From assembly GCA_016191165.1 (NCBI GenBank), contig JACPPF010000101.1, positions 1 to 64,000 on the forward strand: a stretch of DNA of 64,000 nucleotides. The letters run 5' to 3'. The stretch comes from Planctomycetota bacterium (GTDB lineage: Bacteria > Planctomycetota > Planctomycetia > Gemmatales > Gemmataceae). Positions 6,234 to 50,007 of the stretch are shown one piece after another. The first letter of the stretch is position 1. Each line of letters begins with the position of its first letter. The notes under the pieces were generated by a model, which saw only the letters and a list, made by a program, of their open reading frames with translations, was not told the DNA's origin and made no database searches. A program made the position numbers and the translations under genes.

Positions 6234-6239
6234 ACGTTG

Positions 6240-10930: not shown

Positions 10931-11219
10931 GCCGACCTCACCACCTCCGCTGCCGACTACTTCTTCGCCTGGGACACACGTTTTTACACATTACGCATTT
11001 GTTGTATTCAACATACGAAATGTCGGCGAGAGTGCCAGGGGAGAAAAAAAAGATCGGTGGCTTGCTCCTCACTACCGTGCCCCGGGCAAGGTTCCCAGGC
11101 CTGGCGTCATGCGCAAGATTCGCCAGCGCACGACAACTTATTTTCATATCATGTCGAAAAGCCAAGTCTTCAAGATGCTCCCCAGCCAGCGTCTTCCTAA
11201 CATCAGGAAGGATGATTCC

Positions 11220-12404: not shown

Positions 12405-12582
12405 CCGGCCAGATAAGTGAAAAGTCGTAATCGCGTCGCAAGTCTTTGCGGGGTCGTTGGTCGCCACGATTTTCTTGAGGACTTCTCACCGGGCGCGGGG
12501 GGCATCCCTGACCCTGCCGATTTCCTGCACAACGACATCGCCGAACCGCGCCACGGCGTGTTACAATCGGAGTAGTTTTGCT

Positions 12583-12645
12583 GTAGGTCAGGCTTTCCAG
12601 CCTGACATTCTTGCGAAACGAGTCAGCCTGGAAAGGCTGACCTAC
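12583..12645. repeat. Palindrome of the GTAGGTCAGGCTTTCCAGCC family
   Basis: The left arm (12583-12606) is identical to the arm of the palindrome at 4336-4359; the right arm (12622-12645) is its complement with two exchanged bases, and the loop is 15 bases. It lies just upstream of the decayed type ISP gene. Confidence 0.9.
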
Positions 12646-12678
12646 GTTTTCGCCCGACGCCGACTCCGGAAGGAACCC

Positions 12679-13685
12679 CATGCCCAGGAAAACGGCGTTG
12701 GCGTCCGTCACGAAGGCGCCGTCGAAACCGCATTCCAGCGTTTGCTCGACCAGATCGCCAAGTTGCACCATTGCCAACTGATTCCCAAGCACAAGTTGAA
12801 AGTCGGGGGCCACACCATTTTTCCCGATGGCACGGTCTTCGAAAAGGAACTCGGCGACCTCGGCCTGCGCCTGGTGCCGGTAGTGCAGCCCAATGCTTTC
12901 CCTTCTACGTCAACGACGAAGACGGCAGCAATCGCCGCGAGAACATCACCGATTGGGCCCTGGAGCCGTTTCGGGCGCGCTTTGGTAATGCGAGCGCCGA
13001 CCGAGCGGCGGCCGTGAGGCCGCCGTGCCTCGCCGCGGGGGACGCGACGCCGACCGAAACGGCAGCGCAACCACGGCTGGCTTACGCCGCGCCGCTCGGC
13101 GACAAACGCGACATCACCAAGTGGGACATCTTCTACTACGTCTACGGCATCCTGCATCATCCCGGCTATCGCGCGAAGTTCGCGGATAATCTCAAGCGCG
13201 AGTTGCCGCGCATTCCGCTGGCGCCGCCCCTCACCCCCGACCCCGCTCCCGCAAGGGGAGAGGGGGGAAAAGCCAGCGGGTTTTGGGCGTTCGCCGACGC
13301 GGGGCGCGAACTGGCGAGGCTACATCTCGATTACGAGAAGCTGGAACCGTGGGACTTGCAATGGGTCGAAACCGCGGAAACGCCGCTTTCGTATCGCGTC
13401 GAGAAGATGAAACTGTCGCAGGACAAGGCGCGGCTACGCATCAACGACTCGCTCGCCCTGGAAAAAATTCCGCCGGAGGTGTTTCAATATCGGCTCGGCA
13501 ATCGCAGCGCCCTGGAATGGGTGATCGATCAATATCAAGTCAGCGAAGACAAACGCAGCGGCATCAAGTCCGATCCGAACCGGGCTGACGATCCGGAGTA
13601 CATCGTGCGCCTGGTCGGCCAGGTGGTGCGCGTCAGCGTGGAGACGGTGCGGATCGTAAATGCGTTGCCGGAGAAGTTTGCATGA
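12679..13685 (+). pseudogene. Remnant of a type ISP restriction-modification enzyme
   Basis: Both ends of a large type ISP (LlaGI-like) restriction-modification helicase survive, while the helicase and methyltransferase core is gone. The N-terminal remnant reads VRHEGAVETAFQRLLDQ and later LKVGGHTIFPDGT. A C-terminal remnant in a different frame includes NRRENITDWALEPFRARF, ITKWDIFYYVYGILHHPGYR and YRLGNRSALEWVIDQYQV, all signatures of the C-terminal part of this family. The two frames join at about 12,900 where adding one C would restore reading. A second shift probably lies near the ATG at 12679. A palindromic repeat (13226-13267) is also inserted in frame. An intact enzyme is over 1000 aa, so this cannot be functional. 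Confidence 0.8.
13226..13267. repeat. Palindromic repeat copy inside the type ISP remnant
   Basis: A third copy of the element found twice in the kinase gene at 7659-7748, here with GCTCCCGCAAGGGGAGAGGG. In the remnant frame it adds about 14 residues (PPLTPDPAPARGEGG) between two conserved segments. Confidence 0.85.
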
Positions 13686-13825
13686 TCGGCCGAAATTCGC
13701 TCGACATCGCGCGATCGGCTCGGCGCCGCCTCGTATCATCACGGGCAATGGCCGGGTAACTGGCTTCGCCATGGACGCCGAATACCAAGCCGTCCTGTGC
13801 ATCCTCCGCCCGGCTCACGCGCCGC

Positions 13826-34924: not shown

Positions 34925-35046
34925 CGAAACCTCCACACGCATTTTATCGGGCGTGCTGCTCGGTGACGCACTGAGCCGTGACGCCTCCGGCAAGCAAATG
35001 CGTAAGATGACGGCAAAGAACACGCCGCAGCATTGAGGACTGTGCG

Positions 35047-35361
35047 ATGAACCTTTCCGCCGTGGAAGCCATCAACCGGGTCAACGAGTCCGTTTCCGTT
35101 GAAATGCTCGTTCAGAAGACGAAGAGTTGCACCGGCTCTTGCCAAGTCTTTCTCGACTCGGAGTCAAACCATCGTGACCCGAAAAACCTTGGCGTGGTCA
35201 TCACGGTAGAAGGACGACCGAAATTCACCGAAGCAGGCATTGACGACCCGACCGTTTACTTCAAAAGCAAGACCATTCGAGTTCGTGGCGTGGTGATCCG
35301 CAAGGAGAAGGGGCCTTACATCGAGGTAAGCGACCCCAGCCAGATCGAGTTGGTAACGTGA
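35047..35361 (+). CDS. Hypothetical protein, possible OB fold
   Basis: A protein of 104 aa with alternating strands (SVEMLVQKTKSCTGSCQVFLD, TIRVRGVVIRKEKGPYIEV) suggesting an OB-like beta-barrel that could bind nucleic acid. It has two cysteines close together. No named family; the SD-like sequence GAGGA lies 8 bases before the ATG. It stands alone. Confidence 0.65.
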   Translation: MNLSAVEAINRVNESVSVEMLVQKTKSCTGSCQVFLDSESNHRDPKNLGVVITVEGRPKFTEAGIDDPTVYFKSKTIRVRGVVIRKEKGPYIEVSDPSQIELVT

Positions 35362-35386
35362 GATCGGGCTGAAGCCTGCCGATCCG

Positions 35387-36025
35387 TCACGCATCGCCTT
35401 TTTCAAGAGCTTGAGCCGCCTCTAGCATCATTTTCTTTTCCTCCTCCGACATTTGTTCCACGTTGGCGATCAAGCTGTTCGCCAGCGCCAATCCATAATG
35501 CTCGAAAACTCCCTTGCGGAGCCTGAACAAGTCCGCTCGGTAGCCTTCGATGCGAAAGTAGTTCGCATACCAGTGGTTCCAACCATTTTCGAGCAGCCTG
35601 CTCTTGGCCCTCCTGTGCCAGCCGTCGCCCTGGAACTCCTCAAAGAACACGACCATCCCGTTGACCGGGTTGGCCTTCGCTTCCGAAGTCAGCAGGAACC
35701 GCCTGAACTCCGATTCGGCTTGAAGCGCCTTGCTCCAGTTCATGCGCAACTTGACCTCGACCGTCAGTCGCCTGCCGTCAGTCAGCAGGATTGCTCCATC
35801 CACGAACAGGTTCTTGAACCTGAAAACCGTCTCGATGCCAAGGGCATCCTTATTCGCCAGCAAGAAGTTGAAGACCTCGCACTCGAATTTGCGAGGCAGC
35901 TTGGTCGTCTCCGGTAAACAGAGTGGAGTGACGAGCGGCGTCACGACTGGCTTGCGGCGATTCCGATCCTCCGGCTTGAATTCCAAGCTGATTAGATCGG
36001 CAATCGTGGTTGGTTTTGGTTTCAA
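35387..36025 (-). CDS. Hypothetical protein, possible PD-(D/E)XK nuclease fold
   Basis: A protein of 212 aa. The middle part VDGAILLTDGRRLTVEVKLR carries D, then E-V-K at the spacing of the PD-(D/E)XK nuclease core, preceded by a helical segment. The last third is helical (SEEEKKMMLEAAQALEK). Nuclease function is a weak inference from this motif only. No family was named with confidence. Confidence 0.6.
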   Translation of the reverse strand: MKPKPTTIADLISLEFKPEDRNRRKPVVTPLVTPLCLPETTKLPRKFECEVFNFLLANKDALGIETVFRFKNLFVDGAILLTDGRRLTVEVKLRMNWSKALQAESEFRRFLLTSEAKANPVNGMVVFFEEFQGDGWHRRAKSRLLENGWNHWYANYFRIEGYRADLFRLRKGVFEHYGLALANSLIANVEQMSEEEKKMMLEAAQALEKGDA

Positions 36026-36078
36026 GGACTCTCCTCGATCTTGGCAGTCAGCAGGTGGGGTGCTTCGTCGTCATGCCG

Positions 36079-36999
36079 TCACTCTCCCAAAATCCCCGCC
36101 AGCGCCTTCTCCAGCATATCCATCCGTGCCAAGCCCGCCCTGAGCGATTTGGAAATGCCGGACTCACCCCAATACGCCCCGGCCAACTGCCCGCAGATCG
36201 CCCCGGTCGTGTCGGCATCATCGCCCAGGTTGACGGCACGCAAGACGGCCTCCTCGAAACTGTCGGCATCGTGGAAAGCCCACAACGACGCTTCCAGGCT
36301 CTTGACCACCCAACCCGATCCCTGGATGACGGGCGGCTGCTTTTGGCGAAAACTCCCCTGGGCAATTTCCTGAATCAAGCGGTGCAGAGGCTTGATGGCA
36401 TTGAGTTGCAGCAATGGCTTCCATTCCGGGGACAAAACCTTATCACGATCCTCCCCGTGGATCAGAGCGGCGAGAACGGTCGCCAGATACCGGCAAGCTG
36501 ATATGCACTGATTGCTGGCGTGCGTCGGCAAACTGGATTCCTCGGCGAGCCGTGAAAGTTCTTCGATCTTGCCGGGAAAAAGACCGGCATACCGGATCGG
36601 CACGGGAGCCAGACGCATGATCGAACCATTGCCACTTGCCTCGTCCGAACGGTCGCCGGAAGTCAGTGCATTTTTCTCGGCGACGTAGTTGCTCAACGCA
36701 TCACTGGTGGTGATCCCGATGTCGAAGCAGCGCCCGTTCACGGAATACTTGCCGGTCTTCCACCACTGAACGTATCGGTCGGCTTGGTCGTTCAAGTCCC
36801 AGCCCACGGCGATGCTGTCGGCCAGGGCGAGGGCCATACTGGTGTCGTCGGTCCATTCTCCGGCCTCTAGGCGGTGCGGCCCACCGCTTCGGTAGCCGGT
36901 GACAGGTGCGAAGCTGCCTGGAGATTTGAACTCGACAGCGGCTCCGAGCGCATCGCCCACTGCCAATCCGATCAAGGCTCCTCGGCGACGGTCCTTCAC
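36079..36999 (-). CDS. ADP-ribosylglycohydrolase family protein
   Basis: A protein of 306 aa. It has GALIGLAVGDALGAAVEF and GEWTDDTSMALALADSI near the N terminus and NLGDDADTTGAICGQLAGAYWG near the C terminus, which hold the paired metal-binding Asp residues. It removes ADP-ribose from proteins or breaks down ADP-ribose derivatives. The GTG at 36999 has GAGGGG nearby; a TTG seven codons upstream is an alternative. It could be linked to the TIR effector of the defence island through ADP-ribose turnover, but that is speculative. Confidence 0.93.
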   Translation of the reverse strand: MKDRRRGALIGLAVGDALGAAVEFKSPGSFAPVTGYRSGGPHRLEAGEWTDDTSMALALADSIAVGWDLNDQADRYVQWWKTGKYSVNGRCFDIGITTSDALSNYVAEKNALTSGDRSDEASGNGSIMRLAPVPIRYAGLFPGKIEELSRLAEESSLPTHASNQCISACRYLATVLAALIHGEDRDKVLSPEWKPLLQLNAIKPLHRLIQEIAQGSFRQKQPPVIQGSGWVVKSLEASLWAFHDADSFEEAVLRAVNLGDDADTTGAICGQLAGAYWGESGISKSLRAGLARMDMLEKALAGILGE

Positions 37000-37021
37000 G
37001 ATGTCCCCTCTGTCATTCAAG

Positions 37022-37234
37022 TCACGCCTTCTCGTGTTGCTTCAGGTAGATCGTGTGGCATTGACATTCAGCAATTCCGGTAGCCCCGCCCAAGAGGACT
37101 TCCTCGGCGATTTGCAACTTCTCCGCACTGGTCGTGGCGTTCCGCTCCAGGCACAAGCGGCGGTACTTGGTATGCTGCCCGAACTCGCCAGTGAGTTTGA
37201 GTTCGAGCCAGATCAGTTTGATGAAGGTCGGCAT
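37022..37234 (-). CDS. Small hypothetical protein
   Basis: A protein of 70 aa, start at 37234 with AAGGGG upstream. It begins MPTFIKLIWLELKLTGEFG and has two close cysteines (ECQCH) near its end. No family known. It lies just upstream of the ADP-ribosylglycohydrolase gene on the same strand, separated by about 22 bases from its start, so an operon is plausible. Confidence 0.5.
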   Translation of the reverse strand: MPTFIKLIWLELKLTGEFGQHTKYRRLCLERNATTSAEKLQIAEEVLLGGATGIAECQCHTIYLKQHEKA

Positions 37235-37292
37235 GGCGTCCCCTTGCGTTTGTCGCCCAGGAGTAAGACGGATTCGGCGGTGGCATGGTTCG

Positions 37293-38159
37293 TCATTGCC
37301 GCTTCGCCCGCTTGCCCCAGATCATCTCGTAGGCGGGCCGGACCTCGCCATCGAGATTCGCCGCCATCCACCCGGCCACGTCCTTGATCGAATCATCCAC
37401 GAAAGAACGACGGCACGCCCCGCAAACATGGACGAAATCCAGGCAGCGATTGAACATACCGACCGGACGAAGGCCGAAGTTGACCAGGATGGTCGGCGTG
37501 TCGCAATTCAAGCAAGTCCCAGGGGCCGCCCGCCTCCACGCCGACTTCATCGCCGCCCAGGGGATGCGGTTGTCTTCAGTGTTGGCCCAGCCGAAGCCGG
37601 ACCAAGTTCCAGGAGCGGCCTGCCAGTCGTCGGCTTCTATGGTGAAGCGGTTGGCCCATTTGCTCTGGAAGAGATCAACGGGGAAGTCGGGGGCGACCTT
37701 GGAGCCGAACAGGAAGTCGTCACCGTGCTGCGTGGTGACGGTTTCCCGCTTGCGGTCCCGCAGCACGACTTTGATTTCATTCGTGGCCAGCCGATGTGCC
37801 TTGAAGAATGGCCGAAGGTCGGCACGATGCGGCCCCCAATGGTGGACGACGACCTGTCCGTGGTAAAGCTCGATGAGGTTCAGGCGGCAGCGCCGGACGA
37901 CGAGCCGGATGATGCGGTCGGCGTCGTTGGGTGTGAGCTTGGCCAACCCCTCGGCGGCACGGGCCAGGATAGACTCGTCCTGGTTCTGCAACGCCCACGC
38001 CACGGGATCGGCGACCGGCCAAGAGTTCAGGGGATCGGCATGGATGACGAAGAAGTGGTCGGGGTTCCGGGCAAAGAGGCTGCGGGGGAGGATCAACGAT
38101 GCGATGGCGGCGGCGGTGGATTTGAGGAAGTGGCGGCGGGATGGATTATTGAAGAACAC
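37293..38159 (-). CDS. Exported hypothetical protein with twin-arginine-like signal
   Basis: A protein of 288 aa. It begins after a GTG start (38159, AGGAGG just upstream) and carries SRRHFLKSTAAAIASLILP, a twin-arginine export signal. The mature part has HHWGPHRADLRPFF, CLNC and CGAC, the last two suggesting a zinc site. No named family was recognised. Confidence 0.6.
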   Translation of the reverse strand: MFFNNPSRRHFLKSTAAAIASLILPRSLFARNPDHFFVIHADPLNSWPVADPVAWALQNQDESILARAAEGLAKLTPNDADRIIRLVVRRCRLNLIELYHGQVVVHHWGPHRADLRPFFKAHRLATNEIKVVLRDRKRETVTTQHGDDFLFGSKVAPDFPVDLFQSKWANRFTIEADDWQAAPGTWSGFGWANTEDNRIPWAAMKSAWRRAAPGTCLNCDTPTILVNFGLRPVGMFNRCLDFVHVCGACRRSFVDDSIKDVAGWMAANLDGEVRPAYEMIWGKRAKRQ

Positions 38160-38281
38160 GGTTCGCTTCCTCCTTTCGATTTCCCCAGCAGTCAAGACAC
38201 TTTCTCGTGCCTCCGAGTTCGCCGTTGACTGGTTCTGTAAAGCGGCCCGCCAAGCAGCATTCGATGAAGGTTTGGTGGACA

Positions 38282-39202
38282 TCAACGAGGACCGAGATTG
38301 TTGATGGCCGTCTTGATTTGAGTACAGACTGGACCAAGCGCAGCCGCCCAAAGGCTCGCATTCTTCGGGTCAGTTGGCGGAACGAAAGACAACGGGTTAA
38401 GGCCCAGCAGGTCGCTCGGCATTTTCAGCTTGATCCCTCGTGGGACTACCATGAAGGTGCGTTGCCGCCCGATTTGGCCCATGAATAGCCCCAACTCAAA
38501 AACCACATTGTCTCTGGGAGCAACGCTCTGCCGCTTCCTGCTTCGGATGACATCCTCTCCCATCACGACGGCGATAGCGAAGTCGGCGGTTGCGACTTCT
38601 CGTTCGAGGTCTTCCATCGTGTACTTCGTCGGGCCAAACACCTGATCGGTCCACACCTTTACGACGCTTGGGAGATGATCCAGCCCAACTTGAATTTGTT
38701 CAGCAACGGTGAGGCTTTCCGCAGACGAGCAGATAAAAATGTTCGGCAATTCATTTGGCCGACGAATCAGCCCGTTCCGATTGCGGAGACGACCGCACAG
38801 TTCCACGGCAATACGCCGCCAGAGGTCTGGGAATGCTGTTGCGATCCGACTGAACTCTGGCTCTGTGACTTTCGCCACAACGGATTTTTCCGCAGCTTTG
38901 ACTGTTGCGCAGCGGCGAGCCTTGGAATCAATCAACGACATCTCGCCGACGTGTGTGCGGGAGTGACGAACAGCGACCAAGCGGCCATTCGCTTCGACGT
39001 TGAAACTTCCAGAAATGATGAAGTAGATGTCGTTCTCTTCAGAGTCCTGTGAGATCAAGACATCGCCATCCTGAAGTTCCCGCATCTCGGATGCCCGGAG
39101 GAGTTCATCAGCGATGTCATGGTTGCCGTGGACAATCACTTGGTCGGCCAATTCATTGGCGAGCAAACGTCTTCCGGCGTCCCCCTCAAATCGCTCTTTC
39201 AT
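38282..39202 (-). CDS. Pycsar effector: cyclic-nucleotide-binding plus TIR-like domain
   Basis: A protein of 306 aa. Residues 30-145 are a cyclic-nucleotide-binding barrel, with the phosphate-binding cassette VGEMSLIDSKARRCATVKA. Residues 154-270 match the TIR-like (CAP12 type) NADase domain: IFICSSAES at the start and NVVFELGLFMGQIG, in which E236 is the expected catalytic Glu. This architecture is that of PycTIR effectors, which cleave NAD when a cyclic nucleotide binds. It is the last gene of a three-gene minus-strand unit after the E2-like gene (gap 29 bases). Family call is firm; activity is inferred. Confidence 0.9.
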   Translation of the reverse strand: MKERFEGDAGRRLLANELADQVIVHGNHDIADELLRASEMRELQDGDVLISQDSEENDIYFIISGSFNVEANGRLVAVRHSRTHVGEMSLIDSKARRCATVKAAEKSVVAKVTEPEFSRIATAFPDLWRRIAVELCGRLRNRNGLIRRPNELPNIFICSSAESLTVAEQIQVGLDHLPSVVKVWTDQVFGPTKYTMEDLEREVATADFAIAVVMGEDVIRSRKRQSVAPRDNVVFELGLFMGQIGRQRTFMVVPRGIKLKMPSDLLGLNPLSFVPPTDPKNASLWAAALGPVCTQIKTAINNLGPR

Positions 39203-39231
39203 CGCTCACCGTCTCCGATTGACAAGGGCCT

Positions 39232-39807
39232 TCATAGCCTTCCCAAGTGGCAGTGCTTGAATTTCCTTCCGCTTCCACACGGACACGGATCATTTCTTCC
39301 AATACCACCGGCGTCTCGAACTGCTTCCCGAATACCCTGAAGCCCATGCGAGCGATCTTCCCCCGGCCATTTGGCTTTTCTCCCATCAAGTCGAGAACGA
39401 ACAAGCCGACGCTGGAATATTCGCTGCTTGAAAAGAAACGTATGAGTCACAGCAAGAAGGTCATTGAGCGAAGTCGCCTCACCGAAGTCAATGCCCGATT
39501 CGCCTGGAACAAACAAGCAGAGCCGCCAATCGTCCTCAATATGACTGTCCCCGCCTTTTTCCCAGCTATCACGATGACTCTCCAGGTAGACAGACGGAGA
39601 TTGGTTTCTGGCGGGGAAGTTTGGCGGGTAAGTGATCCTCAGCTTGACTGTTTCGTAAACGTGGCCGTGTTCCGAAACAACGTGGAACAATCCACGAACA
39701 AAGGCACAGCCCGTTCCCTCGATACCAGCCTCGAAGTCTTCCAGCGATGCCGCAGCAATCGCCTGCTCCCGCTTCCACCGTTGCGGCATGGCCTCGTGCC
39801 ATTGCAT
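39232..39807 (-). CDS. E2-like (ubiquitin-conjugating-like) protein with SEC-C motif
   Basis: A protein of 191 aa. Residues 20-140 have the E2 pattern: a strand-rich start, LRITYPPNFPARNQSPSVYL, then HIEDDWRLCLFVPG, in which Cys97 sits where E2 enzymes have the catalytic Cys. Residues 166-190 carry GRNDPCPCGSGRKFKHCH, a SEC-C zinc site (C175, C177, C186, H187). No E1-like or ubiquitin-like gene is nearby. It starts four bases beyond the cyclase stop (GGAG upstream) and so is part of the Pycsar-like operon. By analogy with CBASS E2 proteins, it may act on the cyclase; this is inferred. Confidence 0.82.
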   Translation of the reverse strand: MQWHEAMPQRWKREQAIAAASLEDFEAGIEGTGCAFVRGLFHVVSEHGHVYETVKLRITYPPNFPARNQSPSVYLESHRDSWEKGGDSHIEDDWRLCLFVPGESGIDFGEATSLNDLLAVTHTFLFKQRIFQRRLVRSRLDGRKAKWPGEDRSHGLQGIREAVRDAGGIGRNDPCPCGSGRKFKHCHLGRL

Positions 39808-39811
39808 TGCA

Positions 39812-41374
39812 TTACTCCGACATCCACGGCTTGCTGTTGTGCCACGGCTTCGCTGCCGCTGTTGCAGTTGTCGAAACACGAACTTGGCCCTGGCTCACGG
39901 ATGCTCCCAGAGTTCCAGTTTCAGCAGCCTTTTCTTCCTTTTTCTCGTCCAGCTTTGAGAAGGTTAAGCCGGTTGCAACGTAAGCCGAACCTTGCTTCGT
40001 GAATTCTTCCTTGACCTCCTCATCATCAAGTTGGTCGTACATCTCGGACGAAATACGGATTTGCTTCGCCGCCGAAATGTACTGAAGCCGTTCGGCTTCC
40101 GTGACTTCTGGGCCGAAGCAGATTGTGATCCGCTCCCCCTTTTTGCCGAGTCGAGTCACGATCACCTTGCCAACGTCCAGACCGACCGCAACGTGAATGT
40201 CCTTTCGGTCGGTCAAATGCTCGTTGAGGACATGCTCCATCGAAGATTGCAGCCCAATTGCGAGATCGACGGCATCCTGGCATCGGTCGGCGTGACTCGA
40301 TTGGCCGCTCGGAAGGTGCAGGATTCCCAAGATGCAATCGCCACGATGTTGTAGCACCAGCCCTTCGTAGTCGGTTTCTGCGACCGAATGGAATTCCGAC
40401 CGGATCATGTGGAACTGGCGAATAAGGCTGACCACCTTTTCGTCGGTTTCAGCCTCCTGGACATAGCGGGTGAAGCCGTCGAGATCGGCGTAAAAGGCGA
40501 TTGCCTCAGTCCTCTTGCAGTTACGCTCGCTGAGACTCGACACATCAATCAGAACGGTCGCCTCTGAAATCTCGATTTCAGAGAGAGCCAAAGCATCTCG
40601 ATGCTCTTCGGTCTTTTTTCGCCAAGCAGCAGGCTTCCAGACCACGCCGAGTTTCTTCGCCAACTCTGGATGGGTGGTCCACCGCAAGCCAGTCGCTCGG
40701 TGGGTCTGGACGCCGGAAACTGCTTCATCCTTGACGAAGTATTCCTGGAGGAAGTCCGGCAGCACGTCGTACATTTCCGACGTGATCGTGATCGTGTCTC
40801 TGCCGCCTATGATCTTCGCAGCAAGATTGGCGCATGTGCCGAGCGAGATCAGTTCCCGCTTTCCGGTTTTCCCGACATTGGCGAGGTAGCTTGTACCACT
40901 CGACAAACCCACGGCGCTGTTGAAGTCACGAACGTCGTTGAAAACGTCGTTGAAGATTTCCAGGACGTAGGTGTTTTGCGTTATGGCATGGGTCACAGCG
41001 AGCTTGGCCCGGTTGCCATCCTTCGGGCTTTCGTCGCCGTCGTAGGGCCTGAAGACAAGGCCGTGCGCCCGCACGGTCTGACGCTGGATGTCACCAACGT
41101 CGTCCTGGTCCATGAGTTCGCCTTGGACTCGCCGAAGTACGCTGGAGGCCCGCAGAAGTTTTCGCTGCTTCTGCAAGTCGTTCCCGGCGTCTTGAACTGC
41201 CCGGTGGAAGTTGGGTACGTCAACGTAAAGGTGAACGCCTTTGGCACGTCGAACGTCCTTCTTTCCCAGGTTCGTGAAGTCCATTGTCCTGGCGAGGTCT
41301 TGGACATTCAGATCAAAATCGCTGAAGTCGTTTGCCCTGACCCGCTCCTTCGAGCGCTTCTCGTTCCAAGCCAT
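39812..41374 (-). CDS. Pycsar-type nucleotide cyclase with two tandem cyclase domains
   Basis: A protein of 520 aa. The C-terminal class III cyclase domain (about 288-450) has IAFYADLDGFTRY (metal Asp D297), QHRGDCILGILH (D346), and VAVGLDVGKVIVTRLG. A second, more diverged cyclase-like domain occupies about 44-225: HLYVDVPNFHRAV, then PYDGDESP, VGLSSGTSYLANVGKTG. The last 45 residues (from KKEEKAAETG to KPWMSE) look disordered. It resembles PycC cyclases, which make cCMP or cUMP in phage defence; product specificity cannot be read from the sequence. GGAG lies before the ATG. It is the first gene of the operon with the E2-like and TIR genes. Confidence 0.88.
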   Translation of the reverse strand: MAWNEKRSKERVRANDFSDFDLNVQDLARTMDFTNLGKKDVRRAKGVHLYVDVPNFHRAVQDAGNDLQKQRKLLRASSVLRRVQGELMDQDDVGDIQRQTVRAHGLVFRPYDGDESPKDGNRAKLAVTHAITQNTYVLEIFNDVFNDVRDFNSAVGLSSGTSYLANVGKTGKRELISLGTCANLAAKIIGGRDTITITSEMYDVLPDFLQEYFVKDEAVSGVQTHRATGLRWTTHPELAKKLGVVWKPAAWRKKTEEHRDALALSEIEISEATVLIDVSSLSERNCKRTEAIAFYADLDGFTRYVQEAETDEKVVSLIRQFHMIRSEFHSVAETDYEGLVLQHRGDCILGILHLPSGQSSHADRCQDAVDLAIGLQSSMEHVLNEHLTDRKDIHVAVGLDVGKVIVTRLGKKGERITICFGPEVTEAERLQYISAAKQIRISSEMYDQLDDEEVKEEFTKQGSAYVATGLTFSKLDEKKEEKAAETGTLGASVSQGQVRVSTTATAAAKPWHNSKPWMSE

Positions 41375-41446
41375 CTTGATTCTCCGTTTCAGAACGAGGG
41401 GTTGGCGAGCGGCAAGAATGCCGCAACCCACGACCAATCCCTTAGC

Positions 41447-41465
41447 TATCGGTATACACTATAGT
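41447..41465. promoter_or_regulatory. Putative operator between Pycsar operon and XRE gene
   Basis: CTATCGGTATACACTATAG (19 bases) is an imperfect palindrome centred on GTATAC. It lies in the short gap between the divergent cyclase and XRE genes, with AT-rich -10-like elements. It could be the site of the XRE repressor for both directions. Confidence 0.45.
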
Positions 41466-41580
41466 TCGCAAAACAGGAAGTCAAGACGGCAGGCGGTTGA
41501 AAAGCCACGAACGAAGCCGTAGACTGTCTGCCACGGATTTTTGCCGAGAGTGTGGGTTGCCCCCGGACAAGGAGCATCGA

Positions 41581-41991
41581 GTGACTGGCGTAGGCGAGCG
41601 GATAAAGGAGAGGCGTCTGGAAATCGGCTGGACGCAGGACCAACTCTGCACAAAAGCAGGTTTGTCCAAGAGCTTTTTGTCGGAATTGGAGAACGGCAAA
41701 CGCAGCGTAAGTGCCGCCAATCTTCTGGACATTGCCCGTGCGTTGAACGTCTCCCTGGATTACTTGATGACGGGCAAAGCCAGCAAGGAAACGCCGAGCG
41801 AAGTGGCGTTACCTTCTTCGCTGGCAAAGTTCGCAGCAGAAGAAGGACTATCGCTGCGACAGACGTTGATGTTGCTTGACATGCACAAGCAGATTTTGGC
41901 CCACCGCAGCGCCAAGAAAAAGGAAGGGCTTGAAGGGGTGGATTGGCAGAAGTTTTACGAAGGTGTGAAGGAATTTCTGGAAAACGAATGA
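41581..41991 (+). CDS. XRE-family repressor
   Basis: A protein of 136 aa when started at GTG 41581 (AAGGAG upstream). The helix-turn-helix reads WTQDQLCTKAGLSKSFLSELENGKRSVS with ARALNVSLDYLMTGKA after it; the second half is acidic-to-mixed helical. An upstream in-frame start (TTG at 41497) would add a CRECG segment and gives 164 aa. It is coupled by an ATGA overlap to an ImmA-like protease gene and stands divergent from the Pycsar-like genes. Confidence 0.88.
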   Translation: MTGVGERIKERRLEIGWTQDQLCTKAGLSKSFLSELENGKRSVSAANLLDIARALNVSLDYLMTGKASKETPSEVALPSSLAKFAAEEGLSLRQTLMLLDMHKQILAHRSAKKKEGLEGVDWQKFYEGVKEFLENE

Positions 41992-43079
41992 CCCGGTTGG
42001 ACGCTGCCACTGAAATTCTCGAACTCGCCAAAGAACTGGGCGTCGGCGCAGCTGCGCCTGTGGACGGCATCCTCGATTACTGCCGTCACCGCATCGACGG
42101 CTGGGTTGCTGAGGCTGGCGGCGTTACGGGCATCGACGCCCTGGAATCGCTCGTTACGAAGCGGCTTCAGATGGTCTTCGAGGAGATCAGGAGCGAAGAG
42201 GATTTCGACCGGCTCACCGAGGTTTATGCACGAGGCAAGAAGGAATTCGTCTTCGCCGGAATGCGGACGAAATTCGATGACGACGGCAACCCGACCTTCG
42301 GTGCGTTGGTGCTGAGGCGGAATGCGACGGCTGATTCGCCGGATCGGTTTGTCGCCGTGATCGACTGCCGTGGCAACAAGCTGGCCCGTCGCTTCTTCAC
42401 CCGCTGGCACGAGATCGCCCACCGACTGACAACCCACGCCGATGGCGGTGCAACGGAGCCGGGCTACCGTTCGGAACACGATCCCATCGAACGGATGATG
42501 GACGAAATCGCCGGTCACGTTGGTTTCTACGGCCCGATCTTCGACCCGGCGTACCAGCAGGCCAGCTTTGGGAAATCGCACCTGACCTTCAGCACGGTCG
42601 AGGCCATCATCAGCGAGGCGTTCCCCACCGCCAGCTTCCAGGCCACGCTGTTCGCCTGCGCTCGTCGCCTGACGACGCCGGTGGTCTACTTGGAAGCGGC
42701 CCTGGCCCACAAAAAAGAAGTGAAGCGAAAGCTGGCGACTCCAAGCATGTTCGGTGACGACCCGCCGCCCGGTGAACTGCGAGCCGTGAAGGTGATCCCG
42801 AACAAGGCGGCGCAGCAGGATGGGTTCACGATCCCGACCAACATGCGTGTGCCTGCGGCTTCGGTGCTTCATCGTCTCTTCGATGCCGAACCGTTGACCG
42901 ATGATGATGACAATGAAGACCTGAGCCAATGGGAATCGAGAGGCAAGACGCTCGAACGCCGGGCCGTGGTCGTGGAAGGCCGGAAGGTTGCCGACCGGGT
43001 GATTGCGATTGTGCAGCCGGTGGAAAAGAGGCGTGCTAGAGATCACTGCGCACAGCGCAACTCCTTGTTCACAACATAA
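41988..43079 (+). CDS. ImmA/IrrE-family metallopeptidase
   Basis: A protein of 363 aa. HEIAH at 141-145 is the zinc-binding motif, with a downstream DEIAGHVGF region supplying further residues. Family members cut their cognate XRE repressor when activated, e.g. by ssDNA in CapH/CapP pairs of CBASS loci. It is translated right after the XRE gene and is followed 91 bases later by the large ATPase gene, so the pair probably controls the island. Confidence 0.9.
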   Translation: MTRLDAATEILELAKELGVGAAAPVDGILDYCRHRIDGWVAEAGGVTGIDALESLVTKRLQMVFEEIRSEEDFDRLTEVYARGKKEFVFAGMRTKFDDDGNPTFGALVLRRNATADSPDRFVAVIDCRGNKLARRFFTRWHEIAHRLTTHADGGATEPGYRSEHDPIERMMDEIAGHVGFYGPIFDPAYQQASFGKSHLTFSTVEAIISEAFPTASFQATLFACARRLTTPVVYLEAALAHKKEVKRKLATPSMFGDDPPPGELRAVKVIPNKAAQQDGFTIPTNMRVPAASVLHRLFDAEPLTDDDDNEDLSQWESRGKTLERRAVVVEGRKVADRVIAIVQPVEKRRARDHCAQRNSLFTT

Positions 43080-43170
43080 GAGGGTAGGGTTTTCCTTCAT
43101 ACAGGAGCGAATCAGGAAGAGACAACAACAACCAAGGATGAAGGCTCGTGGAAACACTCAGGGCTGACCC

Positions 43171-46100
43171 ATGATTCCTGACACGAAAAACCAGTATCGC
43201 ACCATTCTGGAGAACGAGCCTCCGGCGTTCTTTGATCGTGTCAACACGCCTTGGGATCAGGTTCCCGACTTGGAGGACTACAACCGCCAAGCCTACTTGC
43301 GCATCGTTCGAGCGCTCAAAGACCTCACCCGCTTGTCACCGGGCCAAACCGGATCAAACACGCAAGGCGTGCTAATCCTCGGTGAAGCGGGAACTGGCAA
43401 GACGCATTTGTTGATGCGGGTCGCACGGAATTTGGCCGAGACGAACCACATCCTTTTCATTCGCAAGCCAAACAACGAGGAGGCTGTCGCACAGCATATC
43501 TGGGCTAACGTCGTCAGCAGTCTTGCGAGGACCATCCCAACCAAGACAAGTGTGCGAAGTCAGCTAGACGACTTGTTGGCACACGTTTTCTCCAGAGTGC
43601 TGATTCCCGAATTCGAGCAGGACATCCGTGACGACAAGGATGCCGATCAGAAGCGCCGTTGGGTCGCCCGGCTTCAAGAAGACCCGTACAACCTGTTCAA
43701 CATGCTGGGAGAGGGTGAGAAGCGACAGGACAATCTGGATCGAATCAGGAAGCGAACTCTCAAGTATCTCCAGTTCACTCATCCTGACGTGGACCAAACC
43801 ATCGCCCGTGTGCTTATCACCTACTGCTTCGTCGTCCGAGAGGATCGAAAGCGAGTTCTGCTGACGTGGCTTGCCGGACAGGACGTTGACGAAACTGAGG
43901 CCAAAGACTTGGGCCTACCGCCGTCCTGGGTCACTCTGAATGAAACGTCCGGCGATGCTTCAACCCAACAGCAGCGTGAAGATCAGGCGCTTCGGGCGAT
44001 TCGTACCGTTGGGATTCTCTCGACATACTATCAACCGCTCATTCTTGCATTCGACCAACTGGAGGGCCTACGGGATCAGCCACGCCTCACGCACAAATTG
44101 GGAGATGCCGTGCGTGAAATCTTCACGATGGCTCCGAATTTCCTCGTCATCACCTGCATTTTTCCATCGCTATGGGAGACGTGGTTTTCTCCGACGCTTG
44201 ACCAGAGTGTGAGCGAACGCATCGCCCAACAGGTCGTCAAACTCGATACTTTCGGGCCGCAGCATGGCCTCAATCTGCTGGCAACGCACCTGGAGCCATC
44301 GTTCATTAAGCATCGACTGCCGACGAACATTTTCCCGTTCACCCCGGAGGACGTGCAGCAATTATGCCGCAAGGCCACTTCGCCCCGCTCGTTCATTCAA
44401 GTGGCCCGTCACGAGTTTCAGTCTTGGCTCGATGGCAGCCTTTCTTCATCCGCAGGAGTTCCTGTCACTACCAGCAAGACGGTTTTTCAAGCGGAGATTG
44501 ATGACGTAATCAAGACCGCCCTTGCTCGTTTCGAGGAATCACTGCGGAAGTCGTTCGCATCGGAAATGGTGCTGGAACAGGACTTTTTCGGTCGAATCCG
44601 CACCCTCACGGAAACACTTCTGTTCTCGTCAGGAAATGGCGTCGAATTGGGCAAGGCAACTTGCCGCCATTTCGTGATGCCCCCGAATGTGATTATTCGC
44701 CATTCAGCGAGCCGAACCTCACTGTGCCTTGCGGTCATGAACAGCGAGGGGACATCCTTCGCTGCTCGTATGCGCAACCTCAATAAGTGCCTCAAGGACG
44801 GGGATCAGTTCACCCACCTATTGATGATCCGTGATCGGCGGTGCAAACGACTCGGTGCGAAGAGTCAAGAACACCTAGAAGATGCACAGTCCAAAGGGGC
44901 AACCTACGTTCAGGCCGGTCAGGATGAGATGACGTGCCTCAACGCTGTTTACGACACGCTTGTTGCAGTCGAAGAACACGATCTCACGGTCGGCGACCAC
45001 GAGATCGACAAGCGGCAAGTCGTCGGCTTTCTTCGGAATGAACGTGTCCTGAGCAAGACCGAGTTCTTCCGACATGCGGGACGGCACTGCCCGCCCTTGG
45101 CAGAGGTCGTTGGAGTGGAAGGGCCGCAGTCTAGCCATCTACCAAAGCCGACAACTGCACCACCAGTTCAACGACAGCCGACTGAACCACAGAAGGCTGT
45201 GGCGAGACCGCCATTGTCGCCGCACCCCAAGAATCCGCAACCGCCTGTTCAGAAGGCGATGGTGGAAATCGTCATTGGTGATGACGTGTTGGATAGTCCG
45301 CACGTTGGCATTTTGGGGGAACTTCGTGACGGGCGCAAGAGGCTGGGCATTTCATTGACCAAACCTCAGTGTTTGGTCTTGCTCGGATATATGGGGTCCG
45401 GGAAATCCTATGCTTTGGGCGTCCTGATCGAGAACGCTCTCCTGACGCAGCCAGGGCTGATCGAGCAGTCACGTCCGATGAGTGTCGTTGCCTTCAACTA
45501 TCGTCGCAATCCACAATCTCGCTTTGAACATGGCGGCTTCGCCATACCCAACAGCGAGCCGGGCGAAATCATGACCCTGGCTCAGAAGTACGGCGCACAG
45601 CCCAAGGCGGTCGAGACAGTTAATGTGTTCGGCTATCAGGAGGAATTGCCCCGACGTGCAGCGGAGTACGGCTCACTCAAGTCGTTTCCAATTCAGTTCC
45701 GGCCCGATGAACTCGGTGCGGAGCATTGGGAAATCCTGATGAAACCGCCGACTCGTGAAGCGGAGTACATGGACATCATCCGGGACATCATTCAGAAACT
45801 CTTTTATCAGGAACGACTCACCTTCAAGAACCTTGAGCGGGCCATCCAGACCGACGAACGGATGTCGAATACTCAGCGGCGTCGGGCGATGAATCGACTC
45901 AGCTTTGCGGAGCGCTGGATTTCAGACAATCGCCCCTACGAATGGGCCGATGTGCTTCAAGAAGGGTCGCTGAACATCTTCGACCTCCGAATGCAGGCGA
46001 TGGAAGCATCGGAAGCACTGAAACTCTGCCTCATCATCACTGATTTGGTTCGTCGGACGAAAAACGGTGTGAACAAGATGGTCGTTTTTGACGAGGCGCA

Positions 46101-46650
46101 CGAGTACGTCGATTGCAAGGAACTCGTCGGCGAGTTGGAGAATGCGATCACGCAGATTCGGCACGATGGCTTGTCTTTTGTTCTGGCCTCGCAGTTCCCG
46201 GAACGCATCCCGGAGAGAATCTTCAAGTACCTCCTCACACGCTTGATTTTCAAGCTGCCCAACGCCAAGGCAATCAACTACGTTCGACATGCCGCTCCCA
46301 ACTTGGAAAGCCTTTCGCCGCAGAAGGTTTCCAACCTGGACCTGGAGCAAGGCGTGTGCTTCGTACAGACGGATGACGACTGCACTGACATCTTGATGCG
46401 AGTACCGCAGGCTCTTGAAGTCCGGCCACGTTGCACCATGCACGGAGGAGCGACCATTCGTCAGACAGAAGTACCAGGAAGTGAAGTAACCTCGGAAGTT
46501 GCCGAGGGCGAAATCGAGCCGGAATTCGAGGAGTTGGAAGCCGAGCTTTGTCCGGCTTGCGGTGAGGAACTTGTCCTCAAGCGAAGCCGTTCGGGGCCGA
46601 TGATGGTGTGCAATACTTACCCCAAATGCAAATACGCTCGCAGAGCGTAG
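43171..46650 (+). CDS. Large double P-loop ATPase, HerA-like, with C-terminal zinc ribbon
   Basis: A protein of 1159 aa with two ATPase modules. The first P-loop is GEAGTGKT (71-78) with a Walker B-like LILAFDQLEG near 292. The second P-loop is GYMGSGKS (about 739-746) with VVFDEAHEYVD near 972, as in HerA/FtsK DNA translocases. The C terminus has CPACGEEL and a second Cys pair in CNTYPKCKYA, the zinc ribbon type of topoisomerase I tails. It would move along or remodel DNA. It opens the plus-strand series of large defence genes. Confidence 0.88.
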   Translation: MIPDTKNQYRTILENEPPAFFDRVNTPWDQVPDLEDYNRQAYLRIVRALKDLTRLSPGQTGSNTQGVLILGEAGTGKTHLLMRVARNLAETNHILFIRKPNNEEAVAQHIWANVVSSLARTIPTKTSVRSQLDDLLAHVFSRVLIPEFEQDIRDDKDADQKRRWVARLQEDPYNLFNMLGEGEKRQDNLDRIRKRTLKYLQFTHPDVDQTIARVLITYCFVVREDRKRVLLTWLAGQDVDETEAKDLGLPPSWVTLNETSGDASTQQQREDQALRAIRTVGILSTYYQPLILAFDQLEGLRDQPRLTHKLGDAVREIFTMAPNFLVITCIFPSLWETWFSPTLDQSVSERIAQQVVKLDTFGPQHGLNLLATHLEPSFIKHRLPTNIFPFTPEDVQQLCRKATSPRSFIQVARHEFQSWLDGSLSSSAGVPVTTSKTVFQAEIDDVIKTALARFEESLRKSFASEMVLEQDFFGRIRTLTETLLFSSGNGVELGKATCRHFVMPPNVIIRHSASRTSLCLAVMNSEGTSFAARMRNLNKCLKDGDQFTHLLMIRDRRCKRLGAKSQEHLEDAQSKGATYVQAGQDEMTCLNAVYDTLVAVEEHDLTVGDHEIDKRQVVGFLRNERVLSKTEFFRHAGRHCPPLAEVVGVEGPQSSHLPKPTTAPPVQRQPTEPQKAVARPPLSPHPKNPQPPVQKAMVEIVIGDDVLDSPHVGILGELRDGRKRLGISLTKPQCLVLLGYMGSGKSYALGVLIENALLTQPGLIEQSRPMSVVAFNYRRNPQSRFEHGGFAIPNSEPGEIMTLAQKYGAQPKAVETVNVFGYQEELPRRAAEYGSLKSFPIQFRPDELGAEHWEILMKPPTREAEYMDIIRDIIQKLFYQERLTFKNLERAIQTDERMSNTQRRRAMNRLSFAERWISDNRPYEWADVLQEGSLNIFDLRMQAMEASEALKLCLIITDLVRRTKNGVNKMVVFDEAHEYVDCKELVGELENAITQIRHDGLSFVLASQFPERIPERIFKYLLTRLIFKLPNAKAINYVRHAAPNLESLSPQKVSNLDLEQGVCFVQTDDDCTDILMRVPQALEVRPRCTMHGGATIRQTEVPGSEVTSEVAEGEIEPEFEELEAELCPACGEELVLKRSRSGPMMVCNTYPKCKYARRA

Positions 46651-46707
46651 GACGAGTGGCGACGTGGCAGAAACAATGCTGTGAATCGCAACAAGGCTTT
46701 TGGAACC

Positions 46708-49700
46708 ATGACAACAAAAGCGTTACCAATCCCCGAAGTCGGGCAAGCCGTGCGGGTGCGCAGCCGTCTGGCCACGGTCAGGGCGGTTGAACCCTACGAC
46801 AGCCGTACCGTGCAGGGGCGGCTCCACGTCGTTGATGTCGAATACCTCGATGATTTCCGCTACCCGGAAGCCGAACAACTCTTGTGGGAAGTCGAGGCCA
46901 CGGCGTCAATCCTCGGCAGCACGTCGCTCCCCGGTGTAGACGCCAACCGGCCAGACAGTCCCCAGGCCCTTCAAGCATTCGTCAACGCCCATCGGTGGAC
47001 CCGGCTGAACCGTCTTCGTGAGAAGGACGGTCTGGAGGACGAGCCGCTGCTCGGCGTCTGGAACTCGGCCATCCAGGTCCATCCGTACCAACTGGAGCCG
47101 GTCATCCGTGCGCTGTCGATGCCCCGTGTCAGCCTCCTTCTTGCCGATGGGGTGGGCCTGGGCAAAACGATCCAGTCGGGCCTTGTGCTGGAAGAGTTGC
47201 TTCTGCGGCGGCGCATCCGGCGCATTCTCGTTCTTTGCCCGGCGATGCTCCAGCGGCAGTGGAAGTACGAGCTTCGTCGCAAATTCAACCTCGATTTCGA
47301 GGTCATCGACTCCGACTCGACCTTCCAGCTTCGCCGCCGCCTGGGGATCGACACGAACCCGTGGAAGGCATTCCCTCGCATCATCACGTCGATGGACTAT
47401 CTGCGAATGCCCGACATTTTGCAGCAGTTCCTTCAGGCATCGGGGGCCGGACCTGACGCCGAGGCCAACGGCCATCGAACGATGCCGCACGCTCCGTGGG
47501 ATTTGCTGATCGTGGACGAGTGCCATCATTTTGCACCGCAGGCAGGCAACCGGGCCAGCCAGCGGACCCGGATGCTGCGGGAAGTGCGATTTCTCTTCGA
47601 GCATCGCATCTTCGCCTCAGCCACGCCGCACAACGGCAAGACGGTTTGCTTCACCGGCCTGCTGGAATTGCTCGATCCCATCCGATTTCAGATGACGGTC
47701 GAGATGGACGAGAAGGACAAGAGCCATCTCACCGAAGTCCGCATTCGCCGGTTGAAGGACGACATCAACAAGCAGTCGTTGCGCCCGCCTTTCGCCGAGC
47801 AGTTGCCGCCCGTGGAATTGCCGATCAGTATTACGGCAAAGGAATCGGCCCTGTACGAAGCCTTGCGGGAATACCGCAATAAGGGTCAAGCGGCCCTGGG
47901 CAGCGCATCGGCAGCCGAACGCTGGCTCAGTCAGTTCATCTACTCCTTGCTCACCAAGCGCCTGCTTTCCTGCCCCCTCGCTCTGGCCCGGACGTGGTGG
48001 AGGCACTTGGAGGACGATCCCGAAAACGACGTTGACGCACCAAGGCTGTTCGACATGGCCCGTGTCTCTGCGGAGCGTGCCGAAGAACAAACGAAAAGCG
48101 ACGACGAGAAGTCGATTCTCGAAGAAGATGCGGCCCGTTACAGCGGCGCATATTTTCGGAGCCAGAACCAAACCGTCGAACACCTTCAGAGCCGTGTGAA
48201 CAAGGCACTGGAGGCCCTCGGATATGACCGGCGAACCGTCGAAGACCCCGGCAAGCTCGCTGCGTTGGCCAAGAAGTCCGACTCAAAGACCGAGGCCCTC
48301 GTCGCCTGGATCAAGAAGAACCTGTTCGCTGGCGGCAAGCTGCGTGACGACGAACGCCTCATCGTCTTCACCGAGTACAAGGAGACTTTGTTCTTCCTCG
48401 AACAGCGGTTGCTTCAGGAGGGCTTCGACAAGAACACGCTCCGAATCCTCTGCGGCGGCATGAATCTCGATGAATTCGAGGCCGTGAAATCTGAGTTTGA
48501 AGACCCGACCGCCGCCGTGCGTCTGCTCCTGGCGACCGATGCCGCATCCGAAGGCATCAACATGCAGGAGTGCTGCCGCTGGGTCATCCATTACGACATC
48601 CCCTGGTCGCCCTCGAAGCTGCAACAACGAAACGGTCGTGTTTCCCGCCACGGGCAAGTCCGGGATGTCAGCGTCCATTATTTCCGCTGCAACGAAGAAG
48701 AGGACATGAACTTCCTTTTCCGTGTTGCTGAGAAGGTCGAGCAAGTGCGTCAAGACCTGGGCAGCGTGGAGCGCATCTTCGATGCCGCCATCCAGCGCCA
48801 CTTCCAAGGCAAGAAGACGAGCATCGAACAGGTCGGCCTGTTCGTCGGCCAGCAACTTGAAAACGATCCTGCCAGAGAACTCGACCACGAGTCGCCCGGC
48901 GAAATTGCCGACATCACCCGCCGTGCCAAGGAACTCCTCGAAAGCACCGATAACCGGCTTGGCATTTCTCCGCTGGCGCTCCACGACATCCTTCGGGCGG
49001 CGATCACGGTCGAGGGCAATGGCTCGATTGAGGAGATCGCCGGTCGCCCCGGCTTCTATCGACTCAAGCCGCCAGCACGATGGGAAGGACTCGCCCGCCA
49101 AACGCTGACCATTGGCTCTCGAACCGACCGCATGGAATTGGTGTTCGATGCCGCCCTGGTCGAAGAAGAAGTTTCCGGTCGCCGGGTCATGCGGATCAAG
49201 AAGCATCAGGTGTTGTTGCGGCTGGGGCATCCGATAATGCGGCAGGCGATGGCAACACTCAGCCGTCAGTTACATGATCCTGAAGGTCGCAATGCCGTCT
49301 TCCGCTGGTCCATTGCGGCGCTGCAACGCACCGGTTTTGAAGCCCTGCTCGTCTTCCATTACACGCTCACCGCCATCAACGAGTTGCGGGAACCGCTGCA
49401 CGATGAAGTCCTTTCGTCGGTGTTCCGCATCGAGGGGAACAAGATCGGGCTTGTCGAAGATCAGTTCAAGCAAACCGTGCTGCAAAGCCAGCTTCATGCG
49501 ATCAAGTCCTCGGTTCGGCTCGATGATTGGATGCGCACGCTCCGTGGCCACTGGTTCCAGCACAAGGCCGAACTGGAAAAGTATCTCGGTCGGAAGGAGG
49601 CCGAGATGGGGAAGGTCTTCGCTGGTCGTGCCAGCACCGCACTGAAGCGAGAACTGGATGCGGCCAAGGAGAGTTACCGCTACCGGCTCACAGAATTGAA

Positions 49701-50007
49701 GGAGCGAAGCCGGGAACAGGAACTTACCAAAGTGGCCAAGGAACTCTTGCGCCAGCAAGTCGAGGCCACGCAGCCGACACTGTTTGAAGAAATCCAGGAA
49801 GAAGCCAAGTTCCGGGTCCAGGAGCTTGAAGAACAGATGACCGTCTTGAGGCAAGACGTGGAGCGAACCCGTGACTTGCTGGAGAAGGAACGCAAACACC
49901 GTACCGAGATCGTGCTGCCCAAGCGGTTCCAGATTCGTGAAGTGCGTGTGCTGCCCTTGGCGCTCACCTACGTTGTCCCGGCGACTGCGGAGGACGTGCG
50001 CCCATGA
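46708..50007 (+). CDS. SNF2-family helicase (DrmD-like)
   Basis: A protein of about 1099 aa. Motif I is LADGVGLGKTIQSG (about 145-158), motif II LIVDECHHF (about 268-276). The helicase C domain has LIVFTEYKETLFFL, LLLATDAASEGINMQE and RNGRVSRHGQ, as in RapA/SNF2 translocases. A charged helical region forms the last 250 residues. DrmD of class 1 DISARM has this domain order. The start is uncertain between 46708 and GTG 46681. Its stop overlaps the next start by four bases. Confidence 0.9.
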   Translation: MTTKALPIPEVGQAVRVRSRLATVRAVEPYDSRTVQGRLHVVDVEYLDDFRYPEAEQLLWEVEATASILGSTSLPGVDANRPDSPQALQAFVNAHRWTRLNRLREKDGLEDEPLLGVWNSAIQVHPYQLEPVIRALSMPRVSLLLADGVGLGKTIQSGLVLEELLLRRRIRRILVLCPAMLQRQWKYELRRKFNLDFEVIDSDSTFQLRRRLGIDTNPWKAFPRIITSMDYLRMPDILQQFLQASGAGPDAEANGHRTMPHAPWDLLIVDECHHFAPQAGNRASQRTRMLREVRFLFEHRIFASATPHNGKTVCFTGLLELLDPIRFQMTVEMDEKDKSHLTEVRIRRLKDDINKQSLRPPFAEQLPPVELPISITAKESALYEALREYRNKGQAALGSASAAERWLSQFIYSLLTKRLLSCPLALARTWWRHLEDDPENDVDAPRLFDMARVSAERAEEQTKSDDEKSILEEDAARYSGAYFRSQNQTVEHLQSRVNKALEALGYDRRTVEDPGKLAALAKKSDSKTEALVAWIKKNLFAGGKLRDDERLIVFTEYKETLFFLEQRLLQEGFDKNTLRILCGGMNLDEFEAVKSEFEDPTAAVRLLLATDAASEGINMQECCRWVIHYDIPWSPSKLQQRNGRVSRHGQVRDVSVHYFRCNEEEDMNFLFRVAEKVEQVRQDLGSVERIFDAAIQRHFQGKKTSIEQVGLFVGQQLENDPARELDHESPGEIADITRRAKELLESTDNRLGISPLALHDILRAAITVEGNGSIEEIAGRPGFYRLKPPARWEGLARQTLTIGSRTDRMELVFDAALVEEEVSGRRVMRIKKHQVLLRLGHPIMRQAMATLSRQLHDPEGRNAVFRWSIAALQRTGFEALLVFHYTLTAINELREPLHDEVLSSVFRIEGNKIGLVEDQFKQTVLQSQLHAIKSSVRLDDWMRTLRGHWFQHKAELEKYLGRKEAEMGKVFAGRASTALKRELDAAKESYRYRLTELKERSREQELTKVAKELLRQQVEATQPTLFEEIQEEAKFRVQELEEQMTVLRQDVERTRDLLEKERKHRTEIVLPKRFQIREVRVLPLALTYVVPATAEDVRP

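Follow-up and report, generated by a model that had tools for sequence, protein, structure and literature searches.

What does a protein resembling ubiquitin-conjugating enzymes (E2s) do between the cyclase and the effector of an antiphage operon? The question is raised by three genes at 41374-38282 on the minus strand of the window, the 64,000-nucleotide stretch of Planctomycetota DNA (contig JACPPF010000101.1, from an assembly of 183 contigs) analysed here. A preliminary description had read them as an operon of the pyrimidine cyclase system for antiphage resistance (Pycsar) and, because of the E2-like protein, had linked them to type II cyclic-oligonucleotide-based antiphage signalling systems (CBASS). 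Our preferred reading, to which we give a probability of about 0.58, is that the locus is an abortive-infection operon of the Pycsar kind, with a CBASS-type E2 that controls the cyclase by acting on its C-terminus.

The operon and its E2-like protein

The three open reading frames (ORFs) encode a 520-aa cyclase (PycC), a 191-aa E2-like protein and a 306-aa effector (PycTIR), with gaps of 4 nt between PycC and E2 and 29 nt between E2 and PycTIR. Their features are as follows.

39812-41374, minus strand: PycC, tandem-domain class III nucleotide cyclase, 520 aa (PADLOC PDLC02366, Pfam PF00211, 6yii)
39815-39850, minus strand: C-terminal tail of PycC, KPWHNSKPWMSE, with two KPW copies and a conserved terminal [KR]PW; proposed E2 target
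39232-39807, minus strand: E2-like protein with a C-terminal SEC-C motif, 191 aa (PADLOC PDLC00865; profile-profile match)
39517-39519, minus strand: codon of Cys97, candidate catalytic cysteine (invariant in 12/12 alignment rows)
39244-39297, minus strand: SEC-C motif, residues 171-188, candidate zinc site (Pfam PF02810, E = 7.5e-11)
38282-39202, minus strand: PycTIR effector, cyclic-nucleotide-binding domain plus TIR, 306 aa (PDLC02371, 8jsj)

PycC matches the PADLOC model PDLC02366 over residues 1-500 (E = 5e-103), and its second domain is a Guanylate_cyc domain (PF00211, E = 1.3e-15). It aligns in two stretches with the solved 514-aa chain 6yii (E = 6e-37), the motifs YAD.DGFT and GDC being common to both. 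We take 6yii to be PaPycC; by eye, it is nearly identical to the 514-aa PycC of a Stutzerimonas locus (L119; loci are given here by L numbers). The effector matches PDLC02371 (E = 1e-103), the Pfam families CAP12-PCTIR_TIR and cNMP_binding, and the solved PycTIR 8jsj (E = 5e-45). A PycC-family cyclase thus adjoins an effector with a cyclic-nucleotide-binding domain, and both the three genes and their Pycsar character are as the preliminary description had them. The operon also has an E2 without a ubiquitin-activating enzyme (E1) or JAB gene, as in type II-short CBASS; these systems use a cGAS/DncV-like nucleotidyltransferase (CD-NTase), however, and we do not class the operon as CBASS because its cyclase is of the Guanylate_cyc/PycC type. 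No E1 or JAB was found by eye among the ORFs of 35000-45000 or by Pfam in the six proteins scanned.

In the E2-like protein, SEC-C is the sole Pfam match and no Pfam E2 family is hit. The PADLOC model of CBASS-type E2s, PDLC00865, matches it with E = 6e-19, and the profile of its family aligns with a CBASS E2 profile over columns 25-161 of 166 (probability 96.4, E = 1.3e-9) with the cysteines in register. The match to the profile of E2-ntca, the family found beside many other PycCs, is weaker (probability 87.2, E = 4e-6, columns 87-162). When a joint E2 profile was compared with the PDB, the best 60 of 64 matches were ubiquitin-conjugating enzymes or their variants, one GCN2 entry apart (best E = 9e-5). 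Cys97, His89, His154 and Gly155 are invariant in an alignment of 12 E2 cores, comprising the window E2, five relatives from its taxonomic class and six CBASS E2s. The protein thus combines profile similarity to the E2 superfamily with a conserved candidate catalytic cysteine, and the profile evidence favours the E2 identity that had been suggested for it.

In the E2 tree, the window protein groups with the CBASS E2s and separately from 16 E2-ntca proteins (support 100/99). Membership of E2-ntca (PF20298) was considered and rejected: the window E2 has no Pfam match to it, and among the four relatives scanned, L114, L253 and L254 fall short of the cut-off (E = 0.14-0.18) and L256 has no match. 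As judged from these comparisons, the window E2 is closer to the E2s of type II-short CBASS than to E2-ntca. Between the window and L253, the E2 gene differs by 24, 21 and 58% at codon positions 1, 2 and 3, which indicates purifying selection.

A C-terminal tail that accompanies the E2 type

The PycC of the window ends in KPWHNSKPWMSE and that of L114 in RPWHDSKPWRSE; four further PycCs beside this E2 type end in SKPWRSE, SKPWLSE, SRPWRSH and SKPWSGK. CD-NTases beside the same E2 type end in KPWSE, RPWRRNA and KPWGSGR in three genomes of the window's phylum, and in KPWFKQ, KPWGDTY and KPWKNI on Vibrio, Cytobacillus and Aliarcobacter plasmids (3 of 11 records). [KR]PW therefore lies within the last 12 residues of all 12 cyclases beside this E2 type (six PycCs and six CD-NTases). 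Only 2-4 residues follow the Trp in each of the 12, which puts the motif at the extreme C-terminus. It was first noticed in five loci; the seven further loci all agree, giving p = 3e-8 (uncorrected for relatedness) against 36 comparison cyclases, none of which has it. The PycC thus carries the tail of the CD-NTases of E2-only CBASS, whose E2s its own E2 resembles, and the link to type II CBASS is borne out.

The comparison cyclases were 17 PycCs with E2-ntca (from 20, with near copies L125, L138 and L144 dropped and L141, close to L128, kept), three PycCs with ThiF, six short PycCs without E2 (the copy in L144 dropped) and ten CD-NTases (13 loci minus the truncated L242 and minus L235 and L236, duplicates of L136 and L137). 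Three of these CD-NTases accompany another E2, and two have uncertain ends: L243 has internal stops, and L245 shares its contig with L242 as a second match. The background is 29 in 1890 ORFs of at least 250 codons with [KR]PW among their final 12 residues, a count that takes in antisense ORFs and copies of the positives. Conservation across the six PycCs is higher in the last 7 columns than in the preceding 35 (0.83 vs 0.65). The E2s of the 12 loci share the core profile and, by eye, all have a C.CG..C tail.

Cyclases beside other enzymes of this kind end differently. All 17 PycCs beside E2-ntca have [RKTQ][APS][HY] in their last 20 residues, a motif defined post hoc on the same 17; elsewhere, one of 19 ThiF, short-PycC and CD-NTase cyclases has it, as does one of the 12 with [KR]PW. 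L148 combines a short PycC with an E2, and this PycC has the E2-ntca-type tail, which is absent from all six short PycCs without E2. The PycCs of L116 and L124 (ThiF type) end in GFS, and three CD-NTases beside a short E2 without SEC-C end in PHTFYGDIHET, PHTFHGK and DNTFHSNG. In these sets of sequences, the tail follows the E2 type and not the cyclase fold.

Occurrence and genomic surroundings

The E2 core of the window and L114 served as query for 297 genomes of the window's class. Its subtype is present in six of them (the window's own counted), directly preceded by PycC in every case, so the pairing is not due to chance. All six have an effector gene beyond PycC-E2: PycTIR in five (intact in the window, L253, L254 and L256, and broken in one) and PycTM in L255 (PF18967, E = 7e-12). 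In L134, which is the L114 locus (10878-13687), two transposase-like genes (by eye) split PycTIR and the cyclase and E2 frames stay open. Of 59 genomes drawn as relatives, the window's own included, only the latter has a window-type PycC; the operon is thus patchy and probably moves between genomes. A recent swap of the E2 inside Pycsar was discarded as an explanation, since the PycC tree puts all six on one side of its midpoint root.

Within the phylum, PDLC00865 matches in 4/294 genomes, namely the window's and three with the E2 after a CD-NTase. Untrimmed E2 queries gave matches dominated by SEC-C proteins, and the E2-core profile found no further E2 among the loci from those searches (best 80 of 559 and best 80 of 379). 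Nothing related to the E2 or PycC queries was found in viral contigs; at E = 1e-5, phage records gave no match to either the L137 E2 or the window PycC, and at E = 0.01 plasmids gave none to the window E2 core.

The preliminary description had taken an E2 beside a Pycsar cyclase for an undescribed combination, and had proposed a survey of PycC neighbours. A tblastn search with PycC gave 30 plasmid records, of which we examined 26 (H9, H11, H25 and H30 left out). The cyclase is directly followed by an E2-ntca-type ORF in 20 of these loci and by a ThiF/E1-type gene in three (L124 and L145 as annotated, L116 by eye), together 23/26; a JAB-type gene is also present in L124 (annotated) and L116 (by eye). 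In the remaining three, the match runs off the start of the record (L142) or is weak and probably not PycC (L147 and L149). With the L119 E2 as query, 22 plasmid records were found, all but one (Phenylobacterium) within the same 30. Linkage is therefore common rather than rare, and Pfam already has families for PycC-side E2s, E2-ntca (PF20298) and E2-Crich (PF20272), so that an E2-bearing Pycsar operon is not new as such. Of the supposed new variant, there remains that this E2 subtype and the shared tail are unusual in Pycsar; the E2-Pycsar pairing itself is widespread. By sequence comparison, what is less ordinary is that Pycsar here has a CBASS-type E2/SEC-C protein and that its cyclase, unrelated to CD-NTases, bears the tail that goes with this E2 in CBASS. 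No report of an E2 in Pycsar appears in the titles and opening lines of abstracts of the literature searched, and the portions available to us, including those of PMC10952713, PMC13424991, PMC10419184 and PMC7159879, do not mention a link between tail and E2. Given the existing Pfam names, an earlier mention of the PycC-E2 gene pair is possible, even likely.

In L119 and L125 (both 5533-6306) and L138 (4533-5306), the E2-type ORF after pycC is omitted from the gene tables, which list cyclase and effector. This suggests that the solved PycC (6yii) comes from operons with an adjoining E2 gene that the tables leave out (L119, L125). Several plasmid loci have further genes. L121, L122, L139, L140, L143 and L144 have, near the long PycC-E2 system, an additional short PycC-type cyclase with a candidate effector gene next to it, in several cases on the opposite strand. 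On Rhodobacterales plasmids (L128, L141, L143, L144 and L146), divergent WYL and cyclic-nucleotide-binding genes accompany PycC-E2. Bradyrhizobium plasmids have a gene for a DUF2235 protein, possibly a hydrolase-type effector, downstream of the E2 gene (L129, 3039-4325; L148, 7044-8315, with one gene between).

Upstream of the operon in the window lie a divergent gene pair and a large neighbouring defence island (43171-63365) that resembles DISARM/MADS.

41497-41991, plus strand: divergent XRE-type regulator, start uncertain (PF01381, E = 2e-17)
41991-43079, plus strand: HEXXH-bearing protein (HEIAH in the translation), no Pfam match
43171-46650: HerA/mad8-like ATPase
46681-50007: DrmD-type helicase (PDLC02621, E = 8e-202)
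50004-55037: Eco57I-type methylase
57666-63365: MZB-domain helicase

The divergent XRE and HEXXH pair is found upstream of PycC in the window, L134, L253, L254 and L255, the HEXXH partners in the latter four being 42-47% identical; L256 has another XRE-like gene in this position. From its motif alone, we take the HEXXH-bearing protein to be ImmA/IrrE-like; it is likely to be a regulatory protease. CBASS also has paired HTH-protease regulators, CapH/CapP. Downstream, on the operon's strand, are two ORFs at 36079-37020 and 35387-36025, neither with a PADLOC match; the former is presumably ADP-ribosylglycohydrolase-like, as judged by eye.

Proposed role of the E2 and its alternatives

Known systems share parts of this arrangement. 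Pycsar loci with E2-ntca/E2-Crich (PF20298/PF20272; e.g., L119 from Stutzerimonas and L125 from P. aeruginosa) have a PycC-family cyclase with the E2 directly 3', a PycTIR or PycTM effector nearby and a short C-terminal tail motif, as in the window. Their E2s have a Cys-rich tail, however, whereas the window E2 has SEC-C and no Pfam E2 match, and their cyclases end in [RKTQ][APS][HY] instead of [KR]PW. E2-only (type II-short) CBASS (L135-L137 and L150-L152) shares with the window the E2 profile, the invariant Cys, a SEC-C-like tail, the [KR]PW cyclase tail and the absence of an E1 beside the E2 (by eye or in the gene tables), but its cyclase is a CD-NTase instead of a class III PycC and its effectors are SAVED or patatin-type (by eye or annotation) instead of PycTIR. 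Type II CBASS with Cap2/Cap3 (E1-E2 plus JAB) likewise places ubiquitin-like enzymes beside an immune cyclase, and has Pycsar counterparts in L124 (E1-E2 matching PDLC00855, E = 5e-183) and, by eye, L116. The window operon differs in having neither E1 nor JAB, and its PycC ends in KPW rather than their GFS.

According to our preferred reading, infection would cause PycC to make a cyclic pyrimidine nucleotide, which would bind the cNMP domain of PycTIR and lead to NAD+ loss, as expected from the named families. The E2/SEC-C protein would recognise the [KR]PW tail, and Cys97 would attack it beside the Trp and release the last 2-4 residues. The E2 would then keep hold of the PycC C-terminus or transfer it in the manner of ubiquitin, with the E2, a second PycC or a target as acceptor, and this would prime or restrain PycC. 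Since the operon has no E1 partner, Cys97 probably acts on the tail directly. The invariant Cys and the position of the tail at the extreme C-terminus fit an E2 that trims or joins PycC; we infer recognition, cleavage, conjugation and the effect on the cyclase, with trimming and joining drawn from the analogy with CBASS. In a Serratia system, an E2 was reported in 2024 to trim a cGAS and to drive its assembly into chains. Cyclase-cyclase conjugation is proposed for an E2-only type II short CBASS in Krueger 2024 (PMC11153139), where it is still debated whether conjugation activates CBASS cyclases.

Several observations weigh against this reading. The tail ends in Trp plus 2-4 residues, with no terminal Gly. 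In Jenson 2023 (PMC10097602), Cap2 joins cGAS via its C-terminus to lysines, the last Gly is required, and its replacement by Trp abolishes conjugation in E1-E2 CBASS; the chemistry in the window must therefore differ. The single-sequence AlphaFold model of the E2-like protein has a pLDDT (predicted local distance difference test) of 40.7, and an E2 fold is thus a profile-based prediction. The canonical HPN of E2s is not present, His alone being kept; CBASS E2s likewise lack it (both by eye). The E2 tree gives the window protein no settled place among the CBASS E2s, with long branches meeting, and the CBASS SEC-C E2s do not form one clade (L135 lies apart). SEC-C itself is weak in the two CBASS E2s scanned for it (L137 with 20.1 bits against a Pfam cut-off of 20.4, L150 without a match). 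Finally, translation signals overlap the tail: the Trp codon lies within GGAG in 4/12 loci (L114, L253, L135 and L136), and in the window, L114, L253 and L254 a GGAG lies in the codons of the final Ser-Glu.

If these signals, or shared ancestry, had produced the tail, it would be a by-product unrelated to E2 function, to which the close spacing of the PycC and E2 genes and the single clade of the six PycCs also point. We consider this very improbable. The Trp codon is outside any GGAG in 8/12 loci and the Pro and Lys/Arg codons vary with constant residues, so the ribosome site does not explain KPW, although it may help shape the last residues of the tail. Moreover, [KR]PW recurs on 6/6 CD-NTases, which have a different fold, from three phylum genomes and the Vibrio, Cytobacillus and Aliarcobacter plasmids, and on 0/10 CD-NTases with another E2 or none. 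PycCs beside E2-ntca share their own tail, a short PycC with E2 among them, which the short PycCs without E2 lack (0/6).

A non-catalytic partner, binding the KPW tail as sensor, chaperone or brake without covalent chemistry, is possible but in our view unlikely. No E1, JAB or ubiquitin-like gene was seen in the operon, the tail end has no Gly, and pure binding predicts the linkage of tail and E2 equally well; yet Cys97 and His89 are invariant in 12/12 rows, and PMC11153139 proposes conjugation for an E2-only CBASS. The E2 might also conjugate or process another substrate, a phage or host protein, with the cyclase tail only a docking peptide. CBASS Cap2 targets host and phage proteins in Jenson 2023 (PMC10097602), but the moiety joined there is the cyclase itself, by its C-terminus. 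The tail motif, with 2-4 residues left in 12/12, lies at the very end of the chain, and we regard this alternative as improbable.

A tail motif that goes with the E2 type across two unrelated folds leads to a direct prediction, namely that the site of E2 action is a defined residue at the cyclase C-terminus. The chances seem to us even that E2 and matching cyclase tail travel together between antiphage systems as a portable cassette for control. Each type of E2 would then read a C-terminal tag of its own, grafted on unrelated folds (CD-NTase and PycC): [KR]PW for E2/SEC-C, [RKTQ][APS][HY] for E2-ntca and different endings for the remaining E2 and E1-E2 types. To our knowledge, how Pycsar cyclases are switched on is not settled. 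If the portable cassette is real, cyclic-nucleotide immunity would have a general principle of activation in the processing or conjugation of the cyclase C-terminus, with E2-bearing operons as its form in Pycsar.

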